From NCBI GenBank assembly GCA_024207135.1, contig CP042428.1:2542001-2606000 (forward strand): a stretch of 64,000 nucleotides of DNA, in the 5' to 3' direction. The notes beneath the pieces are model-generated. The model did no database searches and was not told where the DNA came from. It saw nothing but the letters and a program-made list of their open reading frames with translations. Position numbers and translations under genes: made by a program. The stretch comes from Arthrobacter sp. C2 (lineage in GTDB: Bacteria; Actinomycetota; Actinomycetes; Actinomycetales; Micrococcaceae). Positions 6,387-58,642 of this stretch are shown piece by piece (positions within the stretch are counted from its first letter, which is position 1; the number at the start of each line of letters is the position of its first letter).

Positions 6387-7856
6387 TCAATCGCCCTCAC
6401 CATTAACTTGTCGCGGAATTCCCAAGGGATTCGATTCCCGCAAATGGGTTGGCAAGAGGTGCTCCGGGAATCCTTGGAAAGCCAGAGGGCGGAGGAAACG
6501 ATCCATAGCCGCCGTGCCTACAGAGGTGCTTTGCACCGCGGTGCTTGCTGGGTAGGGGCCACCGTGCTGCTGTGCGTAAGTGACAGAAACACCCGTTGGC
6601 CACTGATTCCAGAGGACTCGTCCAGCCTTATGTGAGAGCACTTGCAAGAGGGATCCCACTTCACATGAATCAGTGCCATGGATCGAAGCCGTTAGTTGAC
6701 CTTCATATAGCCTTGCCACTTCGCTGAGCTCCGAAGAGTCTTCATACGTAATGACCAGTGCTGCCGGACCGAAACACTCTGCAAGCAACGACTCTGGGTC
6801 CCTGCGAATTTGCTCCAAGGTGGTGTGAAAGAGTATCGGCCGGGCATCGCCACTCGTTCGTGAATTGGATTCGTTCAGCACTTGTACCCCGGCGTGGCCC
6901 TCGAGCTTCTCTTTGGCATCGGAGAATGCAGCCAAAATTCCTTCATTGAGCAGGGGCGCTTCCGATGGAAGTTCCATATTGCGAAGCTCATCAAGAATTA
7001 CGCTCTCGCTCGGTATAAACAGAGTTCCTGGCTTTGTACAAAGCTGCCCCGCACTCTGAGTAAAGGAGGTCACGAACTCACGGGCGATGGATCCGCCACG
7101 CTCCTCTGCTGCTGCCGGAGTAACGAATACGGGGTTGTTGCTGCCCATTTCACCATAGAAGGGGATTGGTTCTGCACGTCCCGAGGCAATGTCGAACAAC
7201 GTTCGCCCACCTGGAATTCCCCCGGTAAACGCGCCAGCTTTGATGCGAGAATCCGCCAGCGCTTCAGCGCCATTTCGGGTTCCGAAAATTATGTCAAAGG
7301 TTCCGTCCGGCGCTCCGGCATCCACGAGTGCGGTTAGAACCACATCCGCGGTCTTGCGGGATAACGCCGGGTGTCCGCGGTGAACCTTGAGCACTACGGG
7401 GCAACCAGCGGCCAGTGCAGATGCAGTGTCACCGCCGGCGACAGAGAACGCAAAAGGGAAGTTGCTGGCGGCAAACACGAGAACTGGGCCAAGAGGCTGC
7501 ATAGTTCGGCGTAAATCGGGACGAGGAGCACCCATGGGCCACTCGTCGTCCTTATGGTCAATTCGCGCATCCAGGAATTCTCCTCCGAGAACCTGCTTGG
7601 CAAAGAGCCTCAACTGGAACGTTGTTCGTTTCAGTTCACCCCGGAGCCGGGGTTCCGCCAGGTGCGTTTCCGCCACTGCTAATCTGATGAGTTCGTCCGA
7701 GGCTTCGTCGAGCCGATCGGCGATGAGTTCCAATGCTTCAGAACGCTCGATCAGTGTGGTGCCGGCCCATGGCTCGAAGGAGGATTCCGCCTTTGCCAGA
7801 ATGAGTTCCAGTGCGGCTGCCGATGTTTCATTTATGGTCTCAAGTGTGAGCGCCAT
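6387..7856 (-). CDS. NADP-type aldehyde dehydrogenase (2-oxoglutarate semialdehyde dehydrogenase-like)
   Basis: This 489-residue enzyme oxidises an aldehyde to the acid with NAD(P)+. The oxyanion-hole region ASNFPFAF (Asn132), the general base in YGEMGSNNP (Glu236) and the catalytic Cys273 in QSAGQLCTKPG are all present. The FPFAFSVAGGDTASALAAGCPVV stretch and overall form are typical of the 2,5-dioxovalerate / KGSADH branch, and a paralogue sits at 45874-47481. I chose the ATG at 7856 because GAAAGG lies five to six bases upstream; the open frame continues further but reads into the preceding transporter gene. It is the last gene of a minus-strand operon (IclR, alcohol dehydrogenase, transporter, this gene), so it probably oxidises the aldehyde made by the alcohol dehydrogenase. 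The exact substrate is unknown. Confidence 0.88.
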   Translation of the reverse strand: MALTLETINETSAAALELILAKAESSFEPWAGTTLIERSEALELIADRLDEASDELIRLAVAETHLAEPRLRGELKRTTFQLRLFAKQVLGGEFLDARIDHKDDEWPMGAPRPDLRRTMQPLGPVLVFAASNFPFAFSVAGGDTASALAAGCPVVLKVHRGHPALSRKTADVVLTALVDAGAPDGTFDIIFGTRNGAEALADSRIKAGAFTGGIPGGRTLFDIASGRAEPIPFYGEMGSNNPVFVTPAAAEERGGSIAREFVTSFTQSAGQLCTKPGTLFIPSESVILDELRNMELPSEAPLLNEGILAAFSDAKEKLEGHAGVQVLNESNSRTSGDARPILFHTTLEQIRRDPESLLAECFGPAALVITYEDSSELSEVARLYEGQLTASIHGTDSCEVGSLLQVLSHKAGRVLWNQWPTGVSVTYAQQHGGPYPASTAVQSTSVGTAAMDRFLRPLAFQGFPEHLLPTHLRESNPLGIPRQVNGEGD

Positions 7857-44873: not shown

Positions 44874-45812
44874 ATGGCCACTTACACCCCTGACGAACTT
44901 GCCAACAAGCTCAAGGATGGACTGCTCTCGTTCCCCGTCACTGCCTTTGACGACAATCTTGAAATCGACGAAGCCGCTTACCGCGCTCACTTGGATTGGC
45001 AGTCAAGCTTCGGCGTTGCCGGCCTCTTTGCCGCCGGCGGCACCGGCGAGGGTTTCACCCTCACCCCCGAGGAAGCCGCCCGCGTGGTGCGCATGGCGGT
45101 CGAGGAAGCCGGCTCGCGCGTTCCGGTGCTCGGCTCGGCCGGAGGCTCCACCAAGCAGGCCATCCAGAACGCCCAGGACTCCGAGGCCGCCGGCGCCGAG
45201 GGCCTGCTGCTGCTGCCGCCCTACCTGACCGAATGCGACCAGGAAGGACTCTTCCAATTCGCCTCCGAAGTCTGCAAAGCCACCTCCACGGGTGTCATTG
45301 TCTATAACCGCGCCAACGCCATCTACTCGGCAGACACCGTGGCCCGCCTGGCCGACACCCACGAAAACTTCATCGGGTTCAAGGACGCCACAGGCAACAT
45401 AGAGCACCTGACGAAGGTGTACTCGAAGAACGGCGACCGCCTCTTCTACCTCGGTGGCCTCCCAACCGCCGAGACCTTTGCCCTGCCGCTGCTGCAGCTG
45501 GGCATGAGCACCTATTCATCTGCCATGTACAACTTCGTGCCGGAGTTCGCCTTGGACTTCTACAAGGACGTACGCAACCAGGATCACAATGCCGTCACCG
45601 AGAAGCTCAAGCGCTTCGTGCTCCCCTACCTAGACATCCGCGACAGGGTCCAGGGCTACGGAGTTTCGATTGTCAAGGGCGGGCTGAATGCCGTTGGCCG
45701 CAATGGCGGATCGGTACGCCCACCGCTACAGAACATGACCGAGTCAGACTTGGCCGACCTGGGCGCACTGATCCAGGCGGCCGGACTGATGCCTGTGGCG
45801 GCGACCGTCTAG
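44874..45812 (+). CDS. kdgD: 5-dehydro-4-deoxyglucarate dehydratase
   Basis: A 312-residue class I aldolase-fold enzyme that dehydrates and decarboxylates 5-keto-4-deoxyglucarate to 2-oxoglutarate semialdehyde. Present are the GGTGEG loop (55-60), Tyr144 in VIVYNRANAIY, and the Schiff-base Lys170 in FIGFKDATGNIEHL. The sequence from LKDGLLSFPVTAFDDNL on is typical of KdgD. AGGAG precedes the ATG. The next gene encodes the enzyme for its product, so the two form the lower glucarate/galactarate pathway. Confidence 0.93.
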   Translation: MATYTPDELANKLKDGLLSFPVTAFDDNLEIDEAAYRAHLDWQSSFGVAGLFAAGGTGEGFTLTPEEAARVVRMAVEEAGSRVPVLGSAGGSTKQAIQNAQDSEAAGAEGLLLLPPYLTECDQEGLFQFASEVCKATSTGVIVYNRANAIYSADTVARLADTHENFIGFKDATGNIEHLTKVYSKNGDRLFYLGGLPTAETFALPLLQLGMSTYSSAMYNFVPEFALDFYKDVRNQDHNAVTEKLKRFVLPYLDIRDRVQGYGVSIVKGGLNAVGRNGGSVRPPLQNMTESDLADLGALIQAAGLMPVAATV

Positions 45813-45873
45813 CCCCGGTTGGGGACGCACCAGCACCACTACCGATAAACCCACGCGCAACGCAGGAGAAGCA

Positions 45874-47481
45874 ATGTCCACGGATACCCAGCAGCTCACC
45901 GGCCAGTCCATCGTGGCCGGGGTCGGCACACATGGAAATGGGGGCGAGGTCCGGGGCTTCAACCCGGCCTCAAACCAAATGCTCGACCCGGCCTACAGCC
46001 TGATCGGCATCGAGCAATTGAGGTTGGCAACGTATGCTGCCGAAGATGCTTTCGAGTCCTTCCGGTCCCTTGACCCCGAGACCCACGCAAGGTTCCTCGA
46101 ATCCATCGCCGAGAACATCGAGGCCGTGGGAACCGAGCTGGTCCAAAGGGCCATGGCGGAGACCGGGCTTCCCCAGGCACGGCTCATCGGCGAGCTCGGG
46201 CGCACCTGCAACCAGCTGCGGCTCTTTGCGCAGGTGGTTCGCCAGGGCGACCACCACGGGGTGCGGATCGACCCGGTGCTCCCGGATCGCACGCCGATGC
46301 CGCGGGTGGACATCCGCCAGCGCAAGATCCCGCTGGGCCCGGTCGCGGTGTTTGGTGCGTCCAACTTCCCCCTGGCATTCTCCACCGCAGGCGGTGACAC
46401 GGCCTCGGCCCTGGCCGCTGGCTGCCCCGTGGTCTTCAAGGCCCACAACGCCCACCCGGGCACCAGCGAAATCGTGGGCCGGGCCATCACCCAGGCCATC
46501 TCGGATGCGAGCCTGCACCCGGGCATCTTCTCGCTGGTCTACGGGCCGGGCGCCAGCATCGGCCAGGCTCTGGTCTCGGACCCGCGCATCAAGGCCGTGG
46601 GCTTCACCGGTTCCCGCGGCGGCGGCACCGCGCTGATGGCCACCGCCGCCGCACGTCCGGAGCCGATTCCTGTCTACGCCGAAATGAGCTCCATCAACCC
46701 CGTCATCTTCTTCGCTGGCGCGCTGGCCGAGGACGCCGCCGGACACGCCAAGGCCTACCTGGGATCGGTCACCGGCTCCAGCGGCCAGCTCTGCACCGCC
46801 CCGGGACTGGTCTTTGTCCCGGCAGGCGGGGAAGGCGACAAGTTCGCCGCGGCCCTGCGCACCGAGACGGCCACCGCCGCCGGACAGACCATGCTCACCG
46901 AAGGCATCTACAACTCCTGGGTCCAGGGCGTGGAAACCCTCGGCCAGCAGCCCGGAGTGAAGCTCTTGGCCCAGGGCACCAAGGGCGAAACCGAGAACGC
47001 ACCGGCCCCGTCCATCTTCTCCACCGGGGTTGCGCAGCTGCTGGACAACCCGGTGCTGCACGAGGAAATCTTCGGCGCAGCCTCCCTGGTCATCCGCTAC
47101 GTGGATGGCGCCGATCTGGCCGCCGCACTGTCCAAGCTCGAGGGCCAGCTCACCGCAACCTTGCAGCTGAACGACTCGGACCACGAGGCCGTCGCCGCGG
47201 TGCTGCCCATCCTGGAGCGCAAGGCCGGTCGCATCCTGGTCAACGGCTGGCCCACCGGAGTCGAGGTCGGCCACGCCATGGTGCACGGCGGACCGTTCCC
47301 CGCCACCTCGGACACCCGGACCAGTTCGGTCGGCACACTAGCCATTGAGCGCTTCCTGCGCCCGGTCGCCTACCAGAACCTGCCGGATGGCCTGCTGCCG
47401 GCACCATTGCAGCAGTCAAACCCGTGGAAGCTGACCCGCCGCTTCGACGGCACCTTGAGGTCTGCTGGAGAACAAGCATGA
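45874..47481 (+). CDS. 2-oxoglutarate semialdehyde (2,5-dioxovalerate) dehydrogenase
   Basis: A 535-residue NADP-type aldehyde dehydrogenase. Asn164 in GASNFPLAFS, Glu270 in PVYAEMSSINP and the catalytic Cys307 in SSGQLCTAPG are present. It directly follows KdgD, whose product it should oxidise to 2-oxoglutarate. CAGGAGAAGCA precedes the ATG. It is a paralogue of the enzyme at 6387-7856, sharing the PGxxSNFPxAFSxAGGDTASALAAGCPVV core. Its stop overlaps the ATG of the glucarate dehydratase stump (ATGA), showing the three were once one coupled operon. Confidence 0.92.
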   Translation: MSTDTQQLTGQSIVAGVGTHGNGGEVRGFNPASNQMLDPAYSLIGIEQLRLATYAAEDAFESFRSLDPETHARFLESIAENIEAVGTELVQRAMAETGLPQARLIGELGRTCNQLRLFAQVVRQGDHHGVRIDPVLPDRTPMPRVDIRQRKIPLGPVAVFGASNFPLAFSTAGGDTASALAAGCPVVFKAHNAHPGTSEIVGRAITQAISDASLHPGIFSLVYGPGASIGQALVSDPRIKAVGFTGSRGGGTALMATAAARPEPIPVYAEMSSINPVIFFAGALAEDAAGHAKAYLGSVTGSSGQLCTAPGLVFVPAGGEGDKFAAALRTETATAAGQTMLTEGIYNSWVQGVETLGQQPGVKLLAQGTKGETENAPAPSIFSTGVAQLLDNPVLHEEIFGAASLVIRYVDGADLAAALSKLEGQLTATLQLNDSDHEAVAAVLPILERKAGRILVNGWPTGVEVGHAMVHGGPFPATSDTRTSSVGTLAIERFLRPVAYQNLPDGLLPAPLQQSNPWKLTRRFDGTLRSAGEQA

Positions 47482-49775: not shown

Positions 49776-50879
49776 TCAGGAGAGCAACTCAAGCTCCCAG
49801 TCCTTGACGTCGGCCAACGGGGCAAAAAGGCTCGCGTCCAGCTCGTCGAGGGGCCGTCCGTGGCGAACCCGCTCCGGCCAGTCTCTGTTGCCCAGAGCCG
49901 CCTTGCCCAGGGCAATGACATCGGCTGTGCCGTCGGCCAGCAGCGCTTCCGCTGTCTCGGGGTCGTCAAGGTTGCCATTGGCAATCACCGGCAACCCGGA
50001 ATACCGCTTGGCCAGGGCGGCCAGCGAGGGACTCCCGTCGCCAAACGCCGGAGCATAGGCTTTGTACTCGGTGGTGTGGATGAAGTCGACGCCGGTGTCA
50101 CCCAGAGTGGAGAAAATGACCTCGGCCTCATCGATTCCGCCGGCCCACCGGTGGTCGTGGTCGCTGACTTTGGCCTGGGAGATGCGGATACCGACGGTCA
50201 TTTCAGGCCCGACGGCCTCACGCACGGCGCGAGCGATCTCCGCGGGGAAACGCACCCGGTTCTGGGCGGAGCCTCCGTACTCGTCGGTGCGGAGGTTGAG
50301 GTAATCGGTGAGGAACTGGTCCAGCAGGTAGCCGTTGGCGCCGTGAATCTCCACGCCATCGAACCCAGCTTCCTTGGCGCGCAATGCGGCATCCACGAAG
50401 CCTTCGCGAACTTCCTGCATTTGCTCCCGAGTGATTTCAGCGGGCACCCGGTAAGCTCCCTCGCCGCGATAGAAGGCCAGTTGCTCTCCCTTGGGCGCAA
50501 CCTCGGAGGGACCCACCGTGGCGTCCGCAAAACGGCTTCCCTGGGCTTGGGATCCAGCGTGCATGAGCTGCGCGAATATTGCGGACCCTGATGCGTGGAC
50601 GGCGTCGACAACCCTGGCCCAGGACCGGGCCTGTTCATCATTTGCCAGACCAGGCTGATGCAAGTAGCCCTGGCTGTATGAAGTGTCGGGATAGATGCCC
50701 TCGGTGATGAGCAGCGCGAAGCCGCCCCTGGCGAAAGCCTCGTAGTAGGAGACCATCTTGTCCGTGACCAATCCGTCCTCGGTGGCACTAACACGGGTCA
50801 TGGGTGCCAACGCCACGCGGTTGGACAACTGCGTGGAACCGATCTGCAGGCTCGACCAGAACGGGCTGGGGTTTGTCAT
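49776..50879 (-). CDS. Old yellow enzyme family NADH:flavin oxidoreductase (ene-reductase)
   Basis: A 367-residue FMN TIM barrel. The FMN/substrate motifs are NRVALAPMTRV, IFAQLMHAGSQAQG, GFDGVEIHGANGYLLDQFLT, GIRISQAKVSDHD and the phosphate loop VIANGNLDDPETAEALLADG. It reduces activated C=C bonds such as enones and maleimides. AAGGAGACATTC precedes the ATG. A predicted LacI operator lies 66 bases upstream (50945-50958), identical in core to those before the LacI gene and the MFS operon, placing it in that regulon. An ArsR-like regulator is divergent. Confidence 0.92.
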   Translation of the reverse strand: MTNPSPFWSSLQIGSTQLSNRVALAPMTRVSATEDGLVTDKMVSYYEAFARGGFALLITEGIYPDTSYSQGYLHQPGLANDEQARSWARVVDAVHASGSAIFAQLMHAGSQAQGSRFADATVGPSEVAPKGEQLAFYRGEGAYRVPAEITREQMQEVREGFVDAALRAKEAGFDGVEIHGANGYLLDQFLTDYLNLRTDEYGGSAQNRVRFPAEIARAVREAVGPEMTVGIRISQAKVSDHDHRWAGGIDEAEVIFSTLGDTGVDFIHTTEYKAYAPAFGDGSPSLAALAKRYSGLPVIANGNLDDPETAEALLADGTADVIALGKAALGNRDWPERVRHGRPLDELDASLFAPLADVKDWELELLS

Positions 50880-50944
50880 GAATGTCTCCTTGGATTTTCA
50901 GGGGCGACGCTATTCCGGTGGAAAGCATGCGCATATTGGTTACC

Positions 50945-50958
50945 CGAACGTTTGTGTA
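50945..50958 (-). promoter_or_regulatory. Predicted LacI operator before the old yellow enzyme gene
   Basis: On the minus strand it reads TACACAAACGTTCG, flanked by CC and GGGTAACC. It is the same 14-base element (TACACAAASGTTYG) found at 54264-54277, 55472-55485 and 55551-55564. Confidence 0.65.
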
Positions 50959-51250
50959 GGCAAAGATGCCCTACGTTCGGTTTGTTGAATTTTCGGGATT
51001 TCCAGTTCGGTCTATCGGAGACCGCGTTAGTCGCCAACCGCACCAAGTATGTATGGATCAGTGCATTATTGGCGGTTCATGGATCCGCACGAGGGTGGCA
51101 GAGCAGACAGGGGTACAACGACCTGTGCATTTTCAGCACGCAAGCCCTTGCCGCCGTTACCCGCATTCAAAGTACGACACTCTTCGTAGTACTAGAAATA
51201 TCGTACAATAGATTCTCAGTCAATTCAGCAATCGAGGAGGCCAAGTACAC
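50959..51250. other. Old yellow enzyme / ArsR divergent intergenic region
   Basis: Rather A/T-rich promoter DNA. It includes the imperfect element CGTAGTACTAGAAATATCGTAC just before the ArsR gene, which may be an ArsR half-site pair. No gene is supported. Confidence 0.4.
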
Positions 51251-51589
51251 ATGCGCGCTCTCGCCCACCCGACCCAAGCAGAGATGCAGCTGGACACGGT
51301 GCTTTCCGCGCTATCCGACCCAGTGCGACGACAAATTGTTGGCCAACTCGCGAACGCATCTATCGATCAGGCTTGCAGCGCTTTCCAACTGCCAATCAGC
51401 AAGTCCACCTCCACGTATCACTTCAGGGTCCTGCGTGAGGCTGGCCTGATTGAACAGCGCTACAGCGGCACCACGATCCTCAACACGCTACGAGCAGCCG
51501 ACCTCGAAGCCCGGTTCCCGGGGTTGCTGCGAGCGGTTCTTCGTGCCGCCCGCAGCGAAACGACCCTCGCCACGTCCGAAGTGGAATGA
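51251..51589 (+). CDS. ArsR-family HTH regulator
   Basis: A 112-residue winged-helix protein. The core LDTVLSALSDPVRRQIVGQL, FQLPISKSTSTYHFRVLREA and GLIEQRYSGTTILNTLRAAD follows the ArsR pattern. There is no obvious CxC metal site in the recognition region, so it likely senses a small molecule or redox state. GAGGAGG lies nine bases before the ATG. It is divergent from the old yellow enzyme gene, a common pairing, so it probably represses that gene alongside LacI. Confidence 0.88.
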   Translation: MRALAHPTQAEMQLDTVLSALSDPVRRQIVGQLANASIDQACSAFQLPISKSTSTYHFRVLREAGLIEQRYSGTTILNTLRAADLEARFPGLLRAVLRAARSETTLATSEVE

Positions 51590-51753
51590 CTGGATGCAGG
51601 TCCGTCGATTGGTCGCGGGGAGCCCGAAGCTCCCCCAAGGCGGGACTGCTTGACATGCGGCAGCTCCCGTCTGGACCACCAAGGGTTACGCGACGTGCCA
51701 GCCTCCACAGGGCTTCATCCGGCGTCCTGTAAACGAGCAGCGAAGTCTCGTTT

Positions 51754-52176
51754 TCACGAGGCCGGAGCCGGCAGCGAAACAGAGCCCAGAATGGCCCCAT
51801 CGACTGCAACCATGATGAACGGCGCCAGCCGGTACGGGAATTCCACCGCTGCGCTAGGTGCTTCCAATGTCCTGAGCCCGAGTCCAAACGCGGTCAGGCG
51901 GAGGTGCGTTGGAGCAGCACGGGATCGAACAAGGACCAAGGCAGGTACGCGCCCGGCAACGGCGGGCAGAGGCAGATAGTCGCTGAATTCCTCGGCTCTT
52001 GCGGATCCCAGGTATTCCAGAAGAGCCGCATCCAAGGCTTCCCAGCCGGCGGCGGAGCAGTGCTGCCCAACCATGTCTAGGAGTTCATCGAAGGTTGAAG
52101 CGGTGCGAGCCGCACCCGTTTGTTTGGAAACGGTCCATCCTCCGGGGAAGGTGCCGACCTTGATCCCTCGGCACAC
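51754..52176 (-). CDS. Hypothetical protein, possibly a fragment
   Basis: The frame reads STFDELLDMVGQHCSAAGWE, ALDAALLEYLGSARAEEFSD and PYRLAPFIMVAVDGAILGSV, with plausible codon use, but no family is recognised. It stays open upstream to 52272, but that part crosses a 14-bp-stem hairpin, so the GTG at 52176 is the latest reasonable long start and has no ribosome site. It could be a C-terminal remnant. Confidence 0.3.
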   Translation of the reverse strand: MCRGIKVGTFPGGWTVSKQTGAARTASTFDELLDMVGQHCSAAGWEALDAALLEYLGSARAEEFSDYLPLPAVAGRVPALVLVRSRAAPTHLRLTAFGLGLRTLEAPSAAVEFPYRLAPFIMVAVDGAILGSVSLPAPAS

Positions 52177-52206
52177 ACCCGTGAGGAACCGACCAATCGA
52201 GGCACG

Positions 52207-52245
52207 CCGGATTGGGCCGGAGACCATTGGCCCGGCCCAATCCGG
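52207..52245. terminator. Perfect 14-bp hairpin downstream of the cyclic-imide hydrolase-like gene
   Basis: CCGGATTGGGCCGG (52207-52220) and CCGGCCCAATCCGG (52232-52245) are exact reverse complements with an 11-base loop. It lies 50 bases past the stop of the minus-strand deacetylase-fold gene. There is no T-run, so it is a terminator-like structure. Confidence 0.65.
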
Positions 52246-52294
52246 TGCGACGCGTGCGCAGGCTCCACACATGTGCGTGCCGACTTCCTTCCAG

Positions 52295-53176
52295 CTACTT
52301 CTGGCGCGGGTTCCGCGCCTTGAACTCTTCAGCGATGGTGTTGAAGTCGGTCCACTTCACGCCTTCGTGGCTGTTGATGTGCTCGATCAGGCGTTCCAGC
52401 ATCAGCAACACCTGTGGGCGGCCGGAGACGTCGGGGTGGATCGTCATGGTGAAGACCGCCTGGTCGTGTTCGCGGTACACCCAGTCGAACTGGTCTCGCC
52501 ACATTTCTTCCAGGTGGCGGGGGTTCACGAAACCGTGGCTGTTCGGGCTGGACTTGATGAACATCATCGGCGGCAGGTCGTCGAGGTACCAGTTGGCCGG
52601 GATCTCCACGAGGTCGGTTTCCACGCCACGGACCAGGGGCTTCATCCAGGTGCTGGCGGGCTTGTCGTAGTCGATCTTGGTCCAGCTGTCCCCGACACGC
52701 ACGTAGTACGGTTCGAAGTCGCGGTGCATGAGCGAGTGGTCGTAGGTGATGCCGCGTTCGAGCAAGAGCTCGTTGGTGACGTTGGAGAATTCCCACCACG
52801 GTGCCACGTAGCCGGTCGGCCGCTTGCCGGTGCGCTGCTCGATCAGGTTGATGCAGTGGTCCAGGATGTCCGTTTCCTGCTCGCGGGTCATCGCGAGGGG
52901 GTTTTCGTGGCTGTAGCCGTGCACCCCGATTTCATGGCCCGCGGCGACGACTTCGTCGAACTGCTCGGGGAAGGTTTCGATGGAGTGGCCAGGCCAGAAC
53001 CAGGTTGCCGGCAGGTCGTACTTCTTCAGCAGGGCGTTCAGCCGCGGGACGCCGACCTCGCCGGCAAACATGCCGCGCGAGATGTCATCCGGGGAGTCTT
53101 CTCCCCCGTACGATCCAAGCCATCCACCAACGGCATCAACGTCGATGCCGAACGCCACGGAAATTTCTTTTGCCAT
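52295..53176 (-). CDS. Polysaccharide-deacetylase-fold hydrolase, probable cyclic imide hydrolase
   Basis: 293 residues. The NodB-type fold shows the Asp motif [20 protein letters not shown], the metal His pair in [17 protein letters not shown], and the later [39 protein letters not shown] and [20 protein letters not shown]. From memory it closely resembles the 293-residue cyclic imide hydrolase of Pseudomonas putida. That enzyme opens succinimide, glutarimide or dihydropyrimidine rings to half-amides. Start is the ATG at 53176 (MAKEIS), five bases after AAGGA; the upstream ATG at 53182 sits directly on the ribosome site. It follows the asparaginase-type gene by 29 bases on the same strand, so the product half-amide could be hydrolysed by it. 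Confidence 0.85.
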
Positions 53177-53205
53177 CTTCATTCCTTATCTTGTTGCGGA
53201 TCGGT

Positions 53206-54177
53206 TCAAATGTAAGCTGCGAGCAGCTCAGGGTTTGGCTTCTGCCCCTGTGAGAGCATCAATGCCAAAAGCAGGCGGGCCTGGAAAAGCGGCAGCGAGC
53301 CGAGCTGCAGCGCACCCGCCCTGAGCAGGTCGGCGCCGCCCCCGTTGCCGTAGAACGGGACCACGGGGCCTTCAGGAACCCGGGTGCCCAGCCCCACGGT
53401 GATTCCTGCCTGCACGGCTTCCTCGGCCCAGGCCAGGATGGACGAGTTGCCGTTGCCCACCCCGCTGCCGGCGATGATGACGCCTTGGGCTCCGGCTTCA
53501 ACGGCGGCCCTGGCAAGGGTGGCGTCGGAACCCGGGTGGACGGTGACGATGTCGACCCTGGTGCTATCGAACGCCGGCGGGGGCAGGGCAAGAGCCTTGG
53601 GCCGGATCGGGGCCGAGAGGAAGCGGGCCTGCCCGTTTGCAACCTGTCCGATCGGGCCGCCGTCCATGGTCTTGAAGGGCGAGGGCGCGATGGTGTGGGC
53701 CTTGCGGGTGCCCCTGGCTGCATAGATGTTGCCGGCGAAACTGATCATCGCGCCCTTGCCTAGGGCCGAGGAACTTGCCGCGACAGCGATGGCCTCCTGC
53801 AGGTTTCCCGGGCCGTCAGGGCAGGGGTGGTCGGCAGGGCGTTGGGCGCCGGTCAGCACCACGGGCTTGGAAGAGGAATGGACCAGGTCCAGGAGATATG
53901 CCGTTTCCTCCATGGTGTCGGTTCCATGCGTGACAACAATGCCGTCCACGTCGCCATCCGCCAGTTCCGCGGCCACGGCTTCGCAGACCACGCGGAGGTC
54001 GCGGTGGCCCAACAGGTAGGACCCGAGTCGCATGACATCCCGCGACGACACGTTGGGCCCGCCGGCGGCGATGCCGTCCAGCAGCTCGCCCGCCCCACGA
54101 CTTGCAACCGAGGCTCCGCGATCGTTTTCGCTTGAGGCAATGGTCCCTCCCGTTGCCAATACCGAAACCTGAGGCAT
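53206..54177 (-). CDS. L-asparaginase-type amidohydrolase
   Basis: A 323-residue asparaginase/glutaminase-family protein. Both active-site signatures are present: SVLATGGTIASS (Thr nucleophile) and GIVVTHGTDTMEETAYLL (Thr-Asp pair), with Lys in VLTGAQRPADHPCPDGPGN at a non-canonical spacing. No signal peptide is seen from the ATG at 54177 (MPQVSVLATGG), so it is cytoplasmic. AAAGG precedes it. It is first in an operon with the cyclic-imide-hydrolase-like gene, behind a LacI operator. It may act as a half-amidase (succinamate to succinate plus ammonia) rather than a true asparaginase (inference). Confidence 0.88.
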   Translation of the reverse strand: MPQVSVLATGGTIASSENDRGASVASRGAGELLDGIAAGGPNVSSRDVMRLGSYLLGHRDLRVVCEAVAAELADGDVDGIVVTHGTDTMEETAYLLDLVHSSSKPVVLTGAQRPADHPCPDGPGNLQEAIAVAASSSALGKGAMISFAGNIYAARGTRKAHTIAPSPFKTMDGGPIGQVANGQARFLSAPIRPKALALPPPAFDSTRVDIVTVHPGSDATLARAAVEAGAQGVIIAGSGVGNGNSSILAWAEEAVQAGITVGLGTRVPEGPVVPFYGNGGGADLLRAGALQLGSLPLFQARLLLALMLSQGQKPNPELLAAYI

Positions 54178-54263
54178 GCTGTGCACCTTTGCCTGGACCC
54201 TTCCGTTGCAGGAGTACTCCCGCGTCAGCTGCTGCTGCGGGAACGAATACCGCAAGCATGCCC

Positions 54264-54277
54264 TACACAAACGTTTG
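54264..54277. promoter_or_regulatory. Predicted LacI operator between asparaginase and LacI genes
   Basis: TACACAAACGTTTG contains the perfect core palindrome CAAACGTTTG (54268-54277), typical of LacI-family sites. It lies in the 207-bp divergent region, 87 bases from the asparaginase ATG and 108 from the LacI ATG, so it can control both. Confidence 0.75.
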
Positions 54278-54384
54278 CCGCAAGTGCGTCACGTCACCTT
54301 GGTGCGATGAAATATGCTGGGGCATTGATGAGTGCACAACCAGTCGCGCATGCGGCTGAGGCACGCGGCACCTTCGGAGGAGAC

Positions 54385-55401
54385 ATGGACAAAGGTTCAG
54401 AGCCCGTTACATTGCGCATGATTGCGGACGAGGTCGGGGTCAATGTTTCCACCGTTTCCCGGGTCATCAATTCCTCCGACAAGGAGGCGCGGCGGTGGGC
54501 GTCCAGTGAGATGATCGACCGGATCCGAACGGTGGTCGCCGCCCGGGGCTACCAGCGAAACCCCCACGCCGCGAGCCTGCGCACGCGCCGCTCGGGTCTG
54601 GTGGGCGTGCTGGTCCCCCGGCTTCAGGACTTTGTCCTGGCCACGGTCTACGAAGGCATCGAGGAAGCCGCAACGGAGCAGGGAATCTCCACCTTTGTCA
54701 CCAACTCGCTCGACCGACCGGAAAACCAGGCCTCTCGCACCGAGCTCATGCTCTCGCGGCGCGTTGACGGGCTGATCTTCGGTGATGCCCATGCCGGGGA
54801 CCCGTTTCTTGACACCCTGGCCAAGCGCGGCATCAAGTTCACCCTGGTGTCCCGCCGATCGGGCGACCACATCTCTGCCACGTGCGACGACATCCTGGGC
54901 GGACGACTGGTTGCCGAACACCTCCTGGCAACCGGCCGCAGGGACATCGGCATCCTGTCGGGCCGCCAGTACGCATCCACCGGCAACGATCGAACGGCCG
55001 GTGTGGTCCAAGCTTGCCTGGAGGCCGGCATCAGGATCCGGCCCGAGCGGATTGTCCATGGAGGTTTCGATGCCCCGGGCGGGCGGCAGGCCACCGAGCG
55101 CCTACTCGAGCAGGGCGGTTGCCCAGATGCCATCTTCGCCACCAACGACTTCGCCGCCATCGGTGCCATGGGCGTCCTGCGCGATCGCGGGATCGGGGTG
55201 CCCGACGACGTGGCGATCGTCGGCTACAACGACACCCCGCTGGCCGCCGAGCTTTCAATCCCGCTGACCACGATCCATTCGCCGATGCATGAGATGGGGC
55301 GCGCCGGCTTGAACTTGCTGCTCGCGATGCTGCGTGGCGAAGCCGTCCAGTCGGTACGACTGGCCCCTGAACTGGTCGTCCGCGCCTCGACCGCAGGCTG
55401 A
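54385..55401 (+). CDS. LacI-family transcriptional regulator
   Basis: 338 residues. The N-terminal HTH and hinge helix are VTLRMIADEVGVNVSTVSRV and RGYQRNPHAASLRTRRSGLV. The periplasmic-binding-like domain shows GLIFGDAHAGDPFLDTLAKR, ILGGRLVAEHLLATGRRDIG, and IFATNDFAAIGAMGVLRDRG. Start is the ATG at 54385, with GGAGGAGAC just upstream; the longer frame would cover the operator. It sits at the centre of four identical-core operators serving its own promoter, the asparaginase/imidase operon, the MFS/SDR operon and the old yellow enzyme gene. Confidence 0.92.
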   Translation: MDKGSEPVTLRMIADEVGVNVSTVSRVINSSDKEARRWASSEMIDRIRTVVAARGYQRNPHAASLRTRRSGLVGVLVPRLQDFVLATVYEGIEEAATEQGISTFVTNSLDRPENQASRTELMLSRRVDGLIFGDAHAGDPFLDTLAKRGIKFTLVSRRSGDHISATCDDILGGRLVAEHLLATGRRDIGILSGRQYASTGNDRTAGVVQACLEAGIRIRPERIVHGGFDAPGGRQATERLLEQGGCPDAIFATNDFAAIGAMGVLRDRGIGVPDDVAIVGYNDTPLAAELSIPLTTIHSPMHEMGRAGLNLLLAMLRGEAVQSVRLAPELVVRASTAG

Positions 55402-55471
55402 AAGTCTCCGGCACCTCGATCGCGGGGGTGACAAGCAACACCTTTCCCGTGTAATGTCCCTTTCTGACACG

Positions 55472-55485
55472 TACACAAAGGTTTG
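55472..55485 (+). promoter_or_regulatory. Predicted LacI operator 1 of the MFS/SDR operon
   Basis: TACACAAAGGTTTG, flanked by CG and CGTACG so that the extended site is a near-palindrome (CGTACACAAAG / GTTTGCGTACG). It lies 108 bases upstream of the MFS ATG. Confidence 0.7.
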
Positions 55486-55550
55486 CGTACGTGCCCTCAC
55501 ACACTCGATCAAGTTCCACGCATGCCCCGGCCCCGTCTCGTTTGGCCGTT

Positions 55551-55564
55551 TACACAAAGGTTTG
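55551..55564 (+). promoter_or_regulatory. Predicted LacI operator 2 of the MFS/SDR operon
   Basis: TACACAAAGGTTTG again, with core CACAAA-GG-TTTGTG. It starts exactly 79 bases after operator 1 and ends 29 bases before the MFS ATG. Two spaced operators would allow cooperative or looped repression. Confidence 0.7.
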
Positions 55565-55593
55565 TGGAACTTTCACCCCGAAAGGAGCAGTCC

Positions 55594-56952
55594 ATGGATT
55601 CCACAACATCGGCTTCCCGCCGCACCCAGACTGCCGCTACAAAAATCGAACCGTGGAACGTGGTCATCACCGGCAAGAAGATGGCCTACGTATCCGTGGT
55701 CTGCTTCATCGCCTGGGTTGCCTCCGTCTACGACTACACGCTCTTTGGCACCCTCCTGCCGGTCATCGCCGAAGACTTCGGCTGGACTGCGGCACAGTCC
55801 ATGTCTGTGAACACCTGGGCAACCGTGGGAGTCTTCCTGGTTTCGCTGGTGGTCGGAACGATCATGGACAAGATGGGCCGCAAGCGCGCCCTGATCCTGC
55901 TGGTCATCGGTGGAGCGGTCAGCTCCGGCCTGACCGGCGCAGCCGCCGGTGCACTCTCCATGGTCATCATCCGCGGCTTTTCCGGCTTCGCGATCTCCGA
56001 AGAGGTCGTCAACGCCGTCTACCTGAACGAGATCTACAAGAAGGCCAAGGGCCGCGGCTTCATGTTCAGCCTGGTCCAGTCCGGCTGGCCGGTGGGCGCC
56101 CTGCTCGCCGCGGGCATGACGGCCCTGTTCCTCCCGATCGTGGGATGGCGCGGCAGCTTCGTCATCGCGGCCCTCGTTTCGCTGGTCGTGGTGTTGCTGG
56201 CCGCCAAGCTCCCCGAATCCCCCACCTTTGCAGCAATGAAGGAAGTCGAACGCAGGCGCAAGGCCGGCGACGAAGCCGGCGCCGCGGCGCTGGCTGCCGA
56301 ACACGAGCTGGAAACCGGCACGGATTCCAAGAGTGGCCTCCGGGGCGTCTTCACCCCCGAGCTGCGGGTCCACACCATCAGCATTTCGCTGGCATGGCTG
56401 TTCAGCTGGATGGCCATCCAGGTGTTCTCCGTGCTCGGGACCACCGTCCTGGTCGAAGCCAAGGGCCTCTCCTTCGACAACGCCCTGTTCATCCTGATCC
56501 TGGCCAACGCCGTTGCCTTCACCGGATACCTGTTCCACGGCTGGGTGGGCGACAAGTTGGGCCGACGCAACACGGTGCTGGGCGGATTCGTCCTCGGCGG
56601 CATTGCCAGCGCCGCCATGCTGCTGGGTCCCAACAGCTCGGGCTTCGTCATCACCATGTACGCATTGACGTTGTTCTTCCTCACCGGTCCGTTTGCCGCC
56701 ATGCTGTTCTACATGGGTGAGTCCTTCCCTGCCCACGTCCGTGGCACCGGCAGCAACCTTGCCCACGTGATGGCTCCCGTCGGCGCCATCGTCGGCTCGG
56801 CCCTGGTCTCCGTCCTGCTGACGGCCGGAGTGCCGATGACCGCCGCAGCACTGCTGGCAGGATCGCTCCCGCTCGCCCTGGCGGGACTGGTCATGCTCGG
56901 CGCCCGCAAGGTCGACCACCGCCAACCCGCAATCGAAGGAGTATCGGCATGA
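55594..56952 (+). CDS. Major facilitator superfamily transporter
   Basis: A 452-residue, 12-TM permease. Motifs are WVASVYDYTLFGTLLPVIAE, MDKMGRKRALILLVIGGAVS, the central cytoplasmic loop with ERRRKAGDEAGAAALAAEHE, and GWVGDKLGRRNTVLGG. The ATG at 55594 has AAAGGAG upstream; the longer frame from 55483 would run through operator 2. It is first in an operon with two SDR dehydrogenases, the first overlapping by 4 bases. As part of the LacI regulon it should import the inducing substrate. Confidence 0.92.
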   Translation: MDSTTSASRRTQTAATKIEPWNVVITGKKMAYVSVVCFIAWVASVYDYTLFGTLLPVIAEDFGWTAAQSMSVNTWATVGVFLVSLVVGTIMDKMGRKRALILLVIGGAVSSGLTGAAAGALSMVIIRGFSGFAISEEVVNAVYLNEIYKKAKGRGFMFSLVQSGWPVGALLAAGMTALFLPIVGWRGSFVIAALVSLVVVLLAAKLPESPTFAAMKEVERRRKAGDEAGAAALAAEHELETGTDSKSGLRGVFTPELRVHTISISLAWLFSWMAIQVFSVLGTTVLVEAKGLSFDNALFILILANAVAFTGYLFHGWVGDKLGRRNTVLGGFVLGGIASAAMLLGPNSSGFVITMYALTLFFLTGPFAAMLFYMGESFPAHVRGTGSNLAHVMAPVGAIVGSALVSVLLTAGVPMTAAALLAGSLPLALAGLVMLGARKVDHRQPAIEGVSA

Positions 56953-57740
56953 ACAATCTCGTCCGCGACGACGGCCTCGAAGGCAAGGTTGCAGTGATTT
57001 CCGGAGCCGGCAGCGGCATCGGGCGGGCCCTTGCCGTCGCCTACGCCCGTGCCGGCGCCAAGACCGTGGCAGGCTACTACCCCGGCGACCCGCATGATGT
57101 CCAGGAAACCGTCGACGCCGTGCGCGCGGCCGGAGGCGAATGCCATCCGGTGGCGGTGGACGTGCGCAGCACCGAGCAGGTCGATGCCCTGGCCGAGCAG
57201 GCCATCCAGCGCTTCGGCTCGTTGGACATTGCCGTGGCCAGCGCCGGGATCCTGCGTCGCGCGCCCTTGGCCGAGATGACCGACCAGGTCTGGGACGACA
57301 TGCTCTCCGTTGACCTCACCGGGGTCTTGCGGTTGTTCCGCTCCAGCGCCCGGCACATGGGCGATTCCGGCGGCTCCATGGTCGCGGTTTCATCGATTGC
57401 CGGCGGCGTCTACGGCTGGGACGATCACGCCCACTACGCCGCCTCGAAGAGCGGTCTGCTGGGGTTGTGCCGCTCCTTGGCCACCGAGCTGGCTCCGCGG
57501 GGCATTCGCGTCAACACCGTGATTCCGGGGCTGATCGAGAGCCCGCAGTCCCTCGACGCAAAGAACTCCCTCGGCGCGGAAGGCCTGAAGGCCGCAGGCA
57601 AGCTCATCCCCAAGGGCCGGGTTGGCACCGTGGATGAGTTGGCCCGCACCATCCGGTTCCTGACCAGTGACGACGCCGCCTACATCACCGGGCAGCAGCT
57701 CATTGTCGACGGCGGCCTGACGGTTCGCTGGCCCAGCTGA
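56949..57740 (+). CDS. SDR-family oxidoreductase
   Basis: A 263-residue classical short-chain dehydrogenase. The cofactor motif is GAGSGIGRAL (Thr-Gly replaced by Ser-Gly in the usual TGxxxGxG); also NAG-type ASAGILRR, catalytic Ser in VAVSSIAGGVYGW, and Tyr/Lys in HYAASKSGLLGLCRSLATEL. It overlaps the transporter stop by 4 bases (ATGA) with GGAG seven bases before the ATG. It interconverts an alcohol and ketone in the pathway controlled by LacI; the substrate is not predictable. Confidence 0.9.
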   Translation: MNNLVRDDGLEGKVAVISGAGSGIGRALAVAYARAGAKTVAGYYPGDPHDVQETVDAVRAAGGECHPVAVDVRSTEQVDALAEQAIQRFGSLDIAVASAGILRRAPLAEMTDQVWDDMLSVDLTGVLRLFRSSARHMGDSGGSMVAVSSIAGGVYGWDDHAHYAASKSGLLGLCRSLATELAPRGIRVNTVIPGLIESPQSLDAKNSLGAEGLKAAGKLIPKGRVGTVDELARTIRFLTSDDAAYITGQQLIVDGGLTVRWPS

Positions 57741-57843
57741 CCCTTTGCACATCATGGTGTCGGGTGGTCTCCCCGGCAGAAGCTGCGGAGCCCGCCCGGC
57801 ACTTTGAACCATCACACGTACCAATCTCCTGAAACGAGGAACC

Positions 57844-58596
57844 ATGAGCGGACAGCTTGAGGGCAAAATCGCCATCGTCACGGGCGGAGCCAGCGGCATC
57901 GGCCGTGCCATCGCCGAACTCTACGCACGCGAGGGTGCCACGGTGGCCATCGCGGACCTGAACCTGGAAGCGGGCCAAGCACTCGCCCGGGAACTGGGGT
58001 CCCTTGGCGGCTCGCACAGCGCCCACGCCGTGGACGTGACCGACGAGCACTCCACGAAGGCCCTGGCCGAGGACGTCGCGGCGCTCCACGGAAGGATCGA
58101 CATCCTGGTCAACAGCGCCGGCATCCTGACGGAAATCCCGTTCCTGGAAATGGAACCCGCGGACTTCGACAAGATGATCGCCGTCGACCTGCGCAGCGTC
58201 TTTTTGTGCAGCCGCTGGGTTGCCCCGTTCATGGTGAAGCAGCAGTGGGGACGGATCATCAACATCGCCTCCCAGATCGGACTCAAGGGCGGCCACGGGC
58301 TGGCCCACTACGCCGCGGCCAAGGCCGGCGTGCTCGGCCTGACCAAGTCGATGGCGCGCGAGCTTGCCGCCGACAACGTCCTGGTCAATGCCATCGCCCC
58401 CGGCCCGATCGTCACCCCGTTGCTGGGTGACTTGAGCGATGAGTGGCGCGCGGAAAAGCAGGCAGAACTCCCCTTGGGCCGCTTCGGCACGGCCGAAGAG
58501 GTTGCCCCCAGCGCGTTGCTGCTGGCGTCGTCTCCCGGAGGGAACCTGTTCATGGGACAGACCTTGGGTCCCAACAGCGGCGATGTCATGCCCTAA
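57844..58596 (+). CDS. SDR-family oxidoreductase (3-oxoacyl-ACP reductase-like)
   Basis: A 250-residue classical SDR. Motifs are VTGGASGIGRAI, NSAGILTEIPFLEM, the Ser in IINIASQIGLKGGHGL, YAAAKAGVLGLTKSMAREL with Tyr and Lys, and NAIAPGPIVTPLL. GAGGAACC lies just before the ATG, 103 bases after the preceding SDR. Its terminator follows immediately. The two SDRs are distinct proteins of one operon, perhaps acting on successive steps. Confidence 0.9.
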   Translation: MSGQLEGKIAIVTGGASGIGRAIAELYAREGATVAIADLNLEAGQALARELGSLGGSHSAHAVDVTDEHSTKALAEDVAALHGRIDILVNSAGILTEIPFLEMEPADFDKMIAVDLRSVFLCSRWVAPFMVKQQWGRIINIASQIGLKGGHGLAHYAAAKAGVLGLTKSMARELAADNVLVNAIAPGPIVTPLLGDLSDEWRAEKQAELPLGRFGTAEEVAPSALLLASSPGGNLFMGQTLGPNSGDVMP

Positions 58597-58613
58597 GGGA
58601 CTGAATCTTGGCA

Positions 58614-58642
58614 GCGGGCGTCCCGGGTAACGGGACGCCCGC
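58614..58642 (+). terminator. Terminator hairpin of the MFS/SDR operon
   Basis: GCGGGCGTCCCG (58614-58625) and CGGGACGCCCGC (58631-58642) pair perfectly around GGTAA, 18 bases after the SDR stop. It is followed by TCGTTTGG, a weak T-run. Confidence 0.8.

Follow-up and report, generated by a model that had tools for sequence, protein, structure and literature searches.

A LacI-linked gene cluster of Arthrobacter sp. C2 with a probable role in the catabolism of a small N-heterocycle

The locus described here raises the question whether a set of neighbouring genes, which encode a LacI-family regulator, an importer, dehydrogenases and two hydrolases, serves a single catabolic pathway, and if so, for what kind of compound. 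The locus lies within a stretch of 64,000 nt of Arthrobacter sp. C2 (CP042428.1, positions 2,542,001-2,606,000 of a single-contig genome of 4.56 Mb), hereafter the window, and encodes: an old yellow enzyme (OYE), a CE4-fold hydrolase (CIH), an asparaginase-like amide hydrolase (ASN), a LacI-family regulator, an importer of the major facilitator superfamily (MFS), two short-chain dehydrogenases/reductases (SDR1 and SDR2) and a protein with an MCxxCG motif (X). The regulon is real in terms of its genes and sites, and we consider it probable that it is LacI-controlled and serves the catabolism of a small N-heterocycle, either a hydroxylated lactam or a cyclic imide, by ring opening followed by amide hydrolysis. 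Among the titles listed in searches of open-licence literature, none describes such a bacterial cluster.

A divergent cluster with shared palindromes

The cluster is arranged around a divergent promoter, with ASN, CIH and X reading leftward (minus strand) and the LacI gene, MFS, SDR1 and SDR2 rightward (plus strand); OYE stands apart from ASN-CIH-X, past an ArsR-type gene. The features, in window coordinates, are:

49776-50879, minus strand: OYE, 367 amino acids (aa), candidate ring ene-reductase (PF00724, E 7.2e-80)
50942-50957, unstranded: putative LacI-type operator before OYE (ACCCGAACGTTTGTGT), 62 bp upstream of that gene, from the palindrome search
51251-51589, plus strand: ArsR-type regulator, located between the X and OYE genes; its Paeniglutamicibacter sulfureus counterpart is 92% identical
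51754-52272, minus strand: X, 172 aa, MCxxCG protein of an unnamed family, starting 22 bp downstream of CIH
52295-53176 (open reading frame extends to 53182), minus strand: CIH, 293 aa, predicted cyclic imide hydrolase of the HpPgdA/HxnM type (match to 3qbu)
53206-54177, minus strand: ASN, 323 aa from the ATG at 54177 (PF00710, E 8.1e-52; PF17763); a TTG-start reading frame reaching 54270 is also open
54264-54280, unstranded: putative LacI-type operator between the divergent ASN and LacI genes, from the palindrome search
54385-55401, plus strand: LacI-family regulator, 338 aa (PF00356/PF13377)
55472-55488, unstranded: putative LacI-type operator 1 before MFS, from the palindrome search
55551-55567, unstranded: putative LacI-type operator 2 before MFS, from the palindrome search
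55594-56952, plus strand: MFS importer, 452 aa (PF07690)
56949-57740, plus strand: SDR1, 263 aa, its start overlapping the MFS stop (PF13561)
57844-58596, plus strand: SDR2, 250 aa (PF00106)

The genes named in the first-pass annotation (OYE, CE4 hydrolase, asparaginase, LacI, MFS and two SDRs) were all recovered, with Pfam matches, at or near the places it had assigned to them; its operon list was complete except for X, which lies in the same operon and had been overlooked. Its plural "old yellow enzymes" was not borne out, as the stretch holds a single OYE; six further places in the genome resemble OYE in DNA.

The four palindromes are of the same kind. A search of the window with ACACAAASGTTTGYGT, allowing up to three mismatches, gave eight strand matches at four places (0.84 expected), and none of 100 shuffles reached eight. 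The pattern TACACAAASGTTYG, drawn by eye from the four cluster sites, had four exact matches across the 4.56 Mb genome, all in the cluster, and no match with one mismatch, so that the cluster sites alone lie within one mismatch of it; at two mismatches 14 rows were recovered, three of which are opposite-strand readings of the same four sites. Because the pattern was derived from these sites, the exact matches are given by construction; the informative part is the lack of other close sites, and the independent test sits in other genomes. The reversed-pattern control was not rarer (23 rows, against 18 in total for TACACAAASGTTYG genome-wide).

For that test we used the best 80 of at least 588 confirmed CIH relatives, a sample that is biased toward near relatives, with family labels taken from codon-model gene calls (high-GC DNA). 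The same LacI family was found within 7 kb of CIH in 47 of the 80 loci. The core CAAWSSWTTG, picked after the palindromes of the relatives had been viewed, was present in promoter windows of the LacI, MFS or OYE genes in 40 of these 47 loci and absent from them in seven, with 87 sites in these windows (25,808 bp) versus 16 in the 1,479,185 bp outside. Both palindrome arms vary together in the Arthrobacter-type relatives (ACCCAAACGWTTGGGT and similar), which is expected of a true operator. The cluster thus combines a LacI gene adjoining the operon with an operator-like palindrome at each promoter, and the earlier proposal that importer and SDRs share a common regulator now goes beyond adjacency, since palindromes precede all three transcription units. 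LacI would bind these sites, and its family membership suggests repression rather than activation.

The two candidate hydrolases and their partners

From its sequence, CIH is well supported as a metal-dependent CE4-fold enzyme of the cyclic-imide-hydrolase type. Its nearest solved structure is HpPgdA (HP0310) of Helicobacter pylori (3qbu, E 7.9e-158), which matches ungapped over the full length (residues 2-295), and the HpPgdA active-site positions D12, D14, H86, H90, W127, W128 and H247 are kept in the window protein and in 80/80 relatives. CIH therefore shares with the HpPgdA/HxnM type both the full-length match and the metal/catalytic residues with the W127/W128 lid, whose roles are taken from HpPgdA (PMC3084791). 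The latter was named a peptidoglycan deacetylase, yet the purified protein showed no activity on any compound tried, among them GlcNAc, chitotriose, N-acetyl dipeptides, N-acetylputrescine and allantoin, the last being the one ring compound named in the accessible text (PMC3084791). Its site looked too closed for polymers; the authors considered a small-molecule substrate likelier and noted polyamine importer genes next to the HpPgdA gene (PMC3084791). The structure has been available since 2011 and the substrate specificity was still termed unknown in 2022 (PMC9304392). The fungal HxnM, for which HpPgdA is likewise the closest known structural homologue, is 64.2% identical to a cyclic imide hydrolase homologue from Pseudomonas putida, and it has been proposed to open 3-hydroxypiperidine-2,6-dione on the basis of deletion metabolomes, in which the hxnM deletion strain alone accumulates this compound (PMC9304392).

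The nearest named relative of CIH among the matches listed is that of P. sulfureus (99% identical). A distant second CE4 relative, which shares about 33% identity with CIH, was seen at genome positions 4422581-4423285.

The residues of ASN were compared in 64 gene-called relatives. The catalytic residues of type II L-asparaginases (PF00710) are retained along with the fold: T89, D90 and K162 in the window protein and in all 64 relatives, S58 in 63 and T12 in 60 (the rest being gaps, for T12 due to short gene calls). Q59 and E283 (E. coli numbering) are, as we take it, the alpha-amine-binding residues of L-asparaginase, and both positions differ: position 59 is Y or F in 62 relatives (one S, one gap) and never Q, while position 283 is G, A or S in 64/64 and never acidic. 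In pairwise comparison with five solved asparaginases, 9bad has T at position 59 and the other four, three of which are near-identical chains, have Q; all five have E opposite the window G or A, although MAFFT placed N of 9bad there. ASN also scores below the curated cut-off of the NCBIfam model TIGR00520 (205.3 versus 314.3 bits). As the alpha-amine-binding positions are changed, ASN is probably no plain L-asparaginase, and these residues make a substrate without an alpha-amine, e.g. succinamate or 2-hydroxyglutaramate, likelier than asparagine. The half-amide hydrolase role proposed at first pass thereby gains support, given that the catalytic residues are kept and those for the alpha-amine lost. 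Two PF06089 asparaginases are encoded elsewhere in the genome.

For the importer, the nearest NCBIfam subfamily is TIGR00895 (aromatic acid/H+ symport), which was not assigned because the score of 156.2 bits lies under the cut-off of 418.55. Specific names for SDR1 and SDR2 were considered and dropped, the best matches being merely generic and FabG-like.

Conservation in other genomes

Gene contents of the 80 loci were counted with open reading frames called by homology, taking neighbours within 8 kb of CIH. ASN was present in 68 loci (within 150 bp of CIH in 54), MFS in 47, SDR1 in 46 and SDR2 in 47; MFS, SDR1 and SDR2 occurred together in 46, and together with ASN and LacI in 42. When restricted to the 63 loci with at least 6 kb on either side of CIH, the numbers were: ASN 54, MFS+SDR1+SDR2 37, the same with ASN and LacI 34, and OYE 8. 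An OYE orthologue (at least 45% identity) was found in eight of the 80 loci and is thus an optional member of the cluster. At E<=1e-80, CIH was found in 37 of 149 genomes of the family (including two of the eight genus members in that sample) and 23 of 296 genomes of the phylum, the Arthrobacter genome included, and this patchy occurrence fits an accessory catabolic island.

Three variants were seen among these loci. At the P. sulfureus locus (L008), where MFS, SDR1 and SDR2 were not found, the palindromes of the MFS promoter and the first MFS codons are retained (around 7560-7760), so that MFS-SDR1-SDR2 were apparently lost naturally. In Pseudonocardia (L030, L036, L038), CIH occurs without an asparaginase within 8 kb, beside molybdenum hydroxylase-type genes (MoCoBD and CoxG by Pfam on L030 alone). 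At least two genes of a lactam-type set (PxpABC/biotin carboxylase) lie near CIH in nine of the 80 loci, and PxpA, biotin carboxylase and PxpB/PxpC-like genes, names of lactam or 5-oxoprolinase type that were assigned by inspection, adjoin the cluster in L025, L033, L066, L069, L071, L076, L077, L080 and L087; several of these also hold a PucR regulator (Pfam in L066 and L025). Their position beside the imide cluster suggests that lactams and imides are handled together.

The context was then followed on plasmids, for which 16 of the 104 records with a CIH relative were hand-picked for variety; 15 of these are annotated, with gaps in the gene tables of PLSDB. The recovered arrangements were: LacI/ASN-CIH-MFS-SDR-SDR-OYE in Rhodococcus; amidase-CIH-MFS-SDR-SDR-X-CobW with a GntR gene nearby in Klebsiella and Paraburkholderia, and the same with GntR and minus the amidase in Pantoea; an ABC importer, SDR, SDR, CIH, X, CobW and amidase in three Rhizobiaceae (L116, L118, L124; the L116 amidase is annotated as hypothetical and was called by homology); an NCS1 permease, amidase, CIH, X and CobW in Leisingera; ABC importer genes, SDR, dihydropyrimidinase (L122:4750-6183), SDR, asparaginase, CIH, X and CobW in Skermanella; asparaginase, CIH, X and CobW alongside an ABC importer in Bradyrhizobium; CIH-amidase in Variovorax; and, in Haematobacter, CIH-X-CobW with no amidase adjoining CIH, followed by a phenol-hydroxylase-type FAD monooxygenase (L127:10243-12123). 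The Halomonas record is unannotated, and X was detected there by a hidden Markov model (HMM). In a Paenarthrobacter record, a CIH relative of 34% identity sits among hydantoinase-type genes. DdaH, a hydantoin-ring enzyme of Paenarthrobacter YJN-5 (PMC9869045), was considered as its identity, and the 34% identical protein of pYJN5-3 could not be confirmed as DdaH.

Ten of the 15 annotated records have an amide hydrolase close to CIH (asparaginase-type in three, amidase-type in seven), and both SDRs of eight plasmid loci best match SDR1 (44-65%) and SDR2 (50-58%), respectively. In two Pseudomonas contigs among the 80 loci an amidase replaces ASN (L082 by Pfam, L084 by family label). Amidase-signature identity was assigned by Pfam on L082 and L114, and by homology or annotation in the remaining loci (L121 by annotation). 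CIH is thus accompanied by an amide hydrolase in different phyla, and this hydrolase comes from two unrelated families. The swapping of importer, regulator and amide hydrolase around the imidase and both SDRs strongly supports a single pathway.

Candidate pathway, rival explanations and the role of X

In the route that we propose, the MFS would import an N-heterocycle, OYE, where present, would saturate a ring double bond, one SDR would oxidise a ring carbinol to an imide carbonyl, CIH would open the imide to a half-amide, and ASN would free ammonia, leaving a dicarboxylate for the tricarboxylic acid cycle. The best template is the lower part of the Aspergillus nicotinate route: 5,6-dihydroxypiperidin-2-one to 3-hydroxyglutarimide, 2-hydroxyglutaramate and 2-hydroxyglutarate; the second SDR would perhaps oxidise a hydroxyl before or after ring opening. 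In A. nidulans the order is: OYE HxnT, SDR HxnW (6-hydroxyl to imide carbonyl), imidase HxnM and amide hydrolase HxnN, and several steps are said by the authors to lack a prokaryotic equivalent (PMC9304392). The Arthrobacter regulon resembles this lower half, including the transporters HxnP/HxnZ, in enzyme classes and in having shared sites before its OYE, SDR, imidase, amide hydrolase and transporter genes, a likeness at the family level, and an amide hydrolase would follow ring opening in both. It differs in that: the amide hydrolase has an asparaginase fold, where the fungal HxnN is FAAH-like; the regulator is a LacI instead of HxnR; there are two SDRs and an additional MCxxCG protein; and HxnS, HxnX and HxnV are lacking from the cluster. 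With its simple layout of one LacI and four palindromes, the cluster is a candidate prokaryotic equivalent of the fungal steps, and the conserved operon, in which close relatives of HpPgdA are accompanied by genes for an importer, for two dehydrogenases and for an amide hydrolase, points to substrates worth assaying.

A further relative of interest is the P. putida cyclic imide hydrolase AAY98498, presumably of strain YZ-26. It belongs to the same CE4-type imidase family as CIH (PMC9304392, PMC8478523).

Various observations weigh against the proposed pathway. LacI regulators mostly sense sugars, and SDR1 and SDR2 fall under the curated cut-offs of the matching NCBIfam models shown. ASN, as the sole PF00710 protein of the genome, would also suit a general asparaginase. 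No upstream enzymes of HxnS, HxnX or HxnV type are among the genes annotated in the cluster. No ASN lies within 8 kb in 12 of the 80 CIH loci, and the full MFS-SDR-SDR set is lacking in 34 (26 of the 63 with 6 kb on both sides), which indicates that CIH works in other settings too. Among the 16 plasmid records opened, those of Rouxiella, the archaeon Halorussus and Paenarthrobacter hold no such cluster. Finally, HP0310 has been reported as a peptidoglycan deacetylase on crude peptidoglycan and mutant data (PMC3084791).

The first-pass annotation had proposed a different chemistry, in which OYE reduces maleimides to succinimides, CIH converts these to succinamates, and ASN yields succinates and ammonia. 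EC 3.5.2.16 is the entry for maleimide hydrolase. HxnM-type enzymes have been assigned this very number (PMC8478523), OYE is preceded by its own operator-like palindrome, and N-ethylmaleimide reductases are among the OYE matches, under the curated cut-off. Still, this route leaves the two SDRs, conserved in 46-47 of the 80 loci, without a task, and its OYE is present in just eight loci, so that we judge it unlikely and the lower fungal nicotinate pathway the better template by comparison; the hydroxyglutarimide version uses all parts, yet lacks its upstream enzymes nearby. From the earlier claim we therefore keep the LacI-linked regulon with importer, imide-hydrolase-type enzyme and amide hydrolase in series, and not the specific sequence maleimide, succinimide, succinamate. 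A salvage of amino-imides (3-aminosuccinimide, 3-aminoglutarimide) that arise when asparagine or glutamine is damaged, in which ASN would act on these two amino acids, would agree with the ASN fold and with its being the only PF00710 protein, but the altered positions 59 and 283 oppose it (Q in 0/64 with one gap, acidic in 0/64) and the importer and two SDRs would be unexplained, which makes it very improbable.

Degradation of hydantoin, allantoin or another ureide is suggested by the dihydropyrimidinase, hydantoinase/oxoprolinase or NCS1 permease genes beside some relatives, and by PuuE (TIGR03212) as the best-scoring NCBIfam model for CIH. The score, however, is 77.8 against a cut-off of 424.6 bits, PuuE is also distant from CIH among the solved structures, and CIH is accompanied by an amide hydrolase, not a carbamoyl hydrolase. 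The allantoinase PuuE is of the CE4 superfamily like CIH and binds no metal at the site, whereas CIH has metal-binding residues, and HpPgdA was, in the accessible text, inactive on allantoin (PMC3084791); a ureide pathway is hence improbable. Least probable is sugar or cell-wall metabolism, in which CIH would deacetylate polysaccharides and the regulator, importer and SDRs would serve a sugar acid. The Pfam name of CIH (Polysacc_deac_1), the LacI regulator, the sugar dehydrogenases among the SDR matches and the HP0310 data mentioned above would favour it, but CIH showed no signal peptide on inspection, is often paired with an amide hydrolase, and its relative HpPgdA, with the closed-looking site described above, did not act on GlcNAc or chitotriose in the same report (PMC3084791).

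X recurs with CIH. An iterated HMM recovered its family in 58 of the 80 CIH loci (60 hits) and in 12 of the 16 plasmid loci, and did not find it in the other 22 and 4, respectively. It starts within 250 bp after SDR2 in 40 of the 60 hits, within 250 bp after CIH in 17 and elsewhere in three, and is single-copy in the Arthrobacter genome. The actinobacterial and proteobacterial sets form one family (hhalign probability 96.7, E 4.5e-10). No match was found for 52 members in Pfam and NCBIfam at E<=0.01, for the sequence in the PDB below E 0.59, or for the AlphaFold model among PDB folds at E<=0.001. This model (pLDDT 86.4, pTM 0.84) consists of helix-strand-strand-strand units and is least certain at the N-terminal MCxxCG stretch. 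Of 72 HMM hits, 68 carried the cysteine pair and had at least 75 residues; the invariance of the pair is partly by construction, since it was used for trimming the family. In the proteobacteria, X is followed by a CobW-type GTPase gene (identified by Pfam in L082 and otherwise from annotation), and members of COG0523 have been described as putative metal chaperones (PMC2770081). An accessory role of X for CIH is probable, and from this gene context we propose that X assists in loading or retaining the metal of CIH. This small protein family, lacking a Pfam or NCBIfam match, accompanies the imidase in two phyla.

A more far-reaching combination of these ideas would make the cluster a bacterial equivalent of the 3-hydroxyglutarimide route of fungi, all members of the HpPgdA family, HP0310 included, cyclic imidases instead of peptidoglycan deacetylases, and X (with CobW in proteobacteria) a metal-site maturation partner on which they depend or by which they are tuned. 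We regard this as doubtful in its entirety, although not negligible; the HP0310 results from crude peptidoglycan and from mutants (PMC3084791) and the 22 loci in which X was not found speak against it.

Two minor observations concern genes near CIH relatives and the remainder of the window. The Haematobacter monooxygenase is of the HxnV domain type, a single case; a co-occurrence of HxnV-type proteins as a link to pyridines was also considered and set aside, as PF07976 is present in 138 of 149 family genomes and hence uninformative. At window positions 44874-47481 (plus strand), where no copy of the LacI palindrome was found, lie genes for a DHDPS-family protein and an aldehyde dehydrogenase, a pair that we take to be as in sugar-acid (glucarate-type) breakdown.

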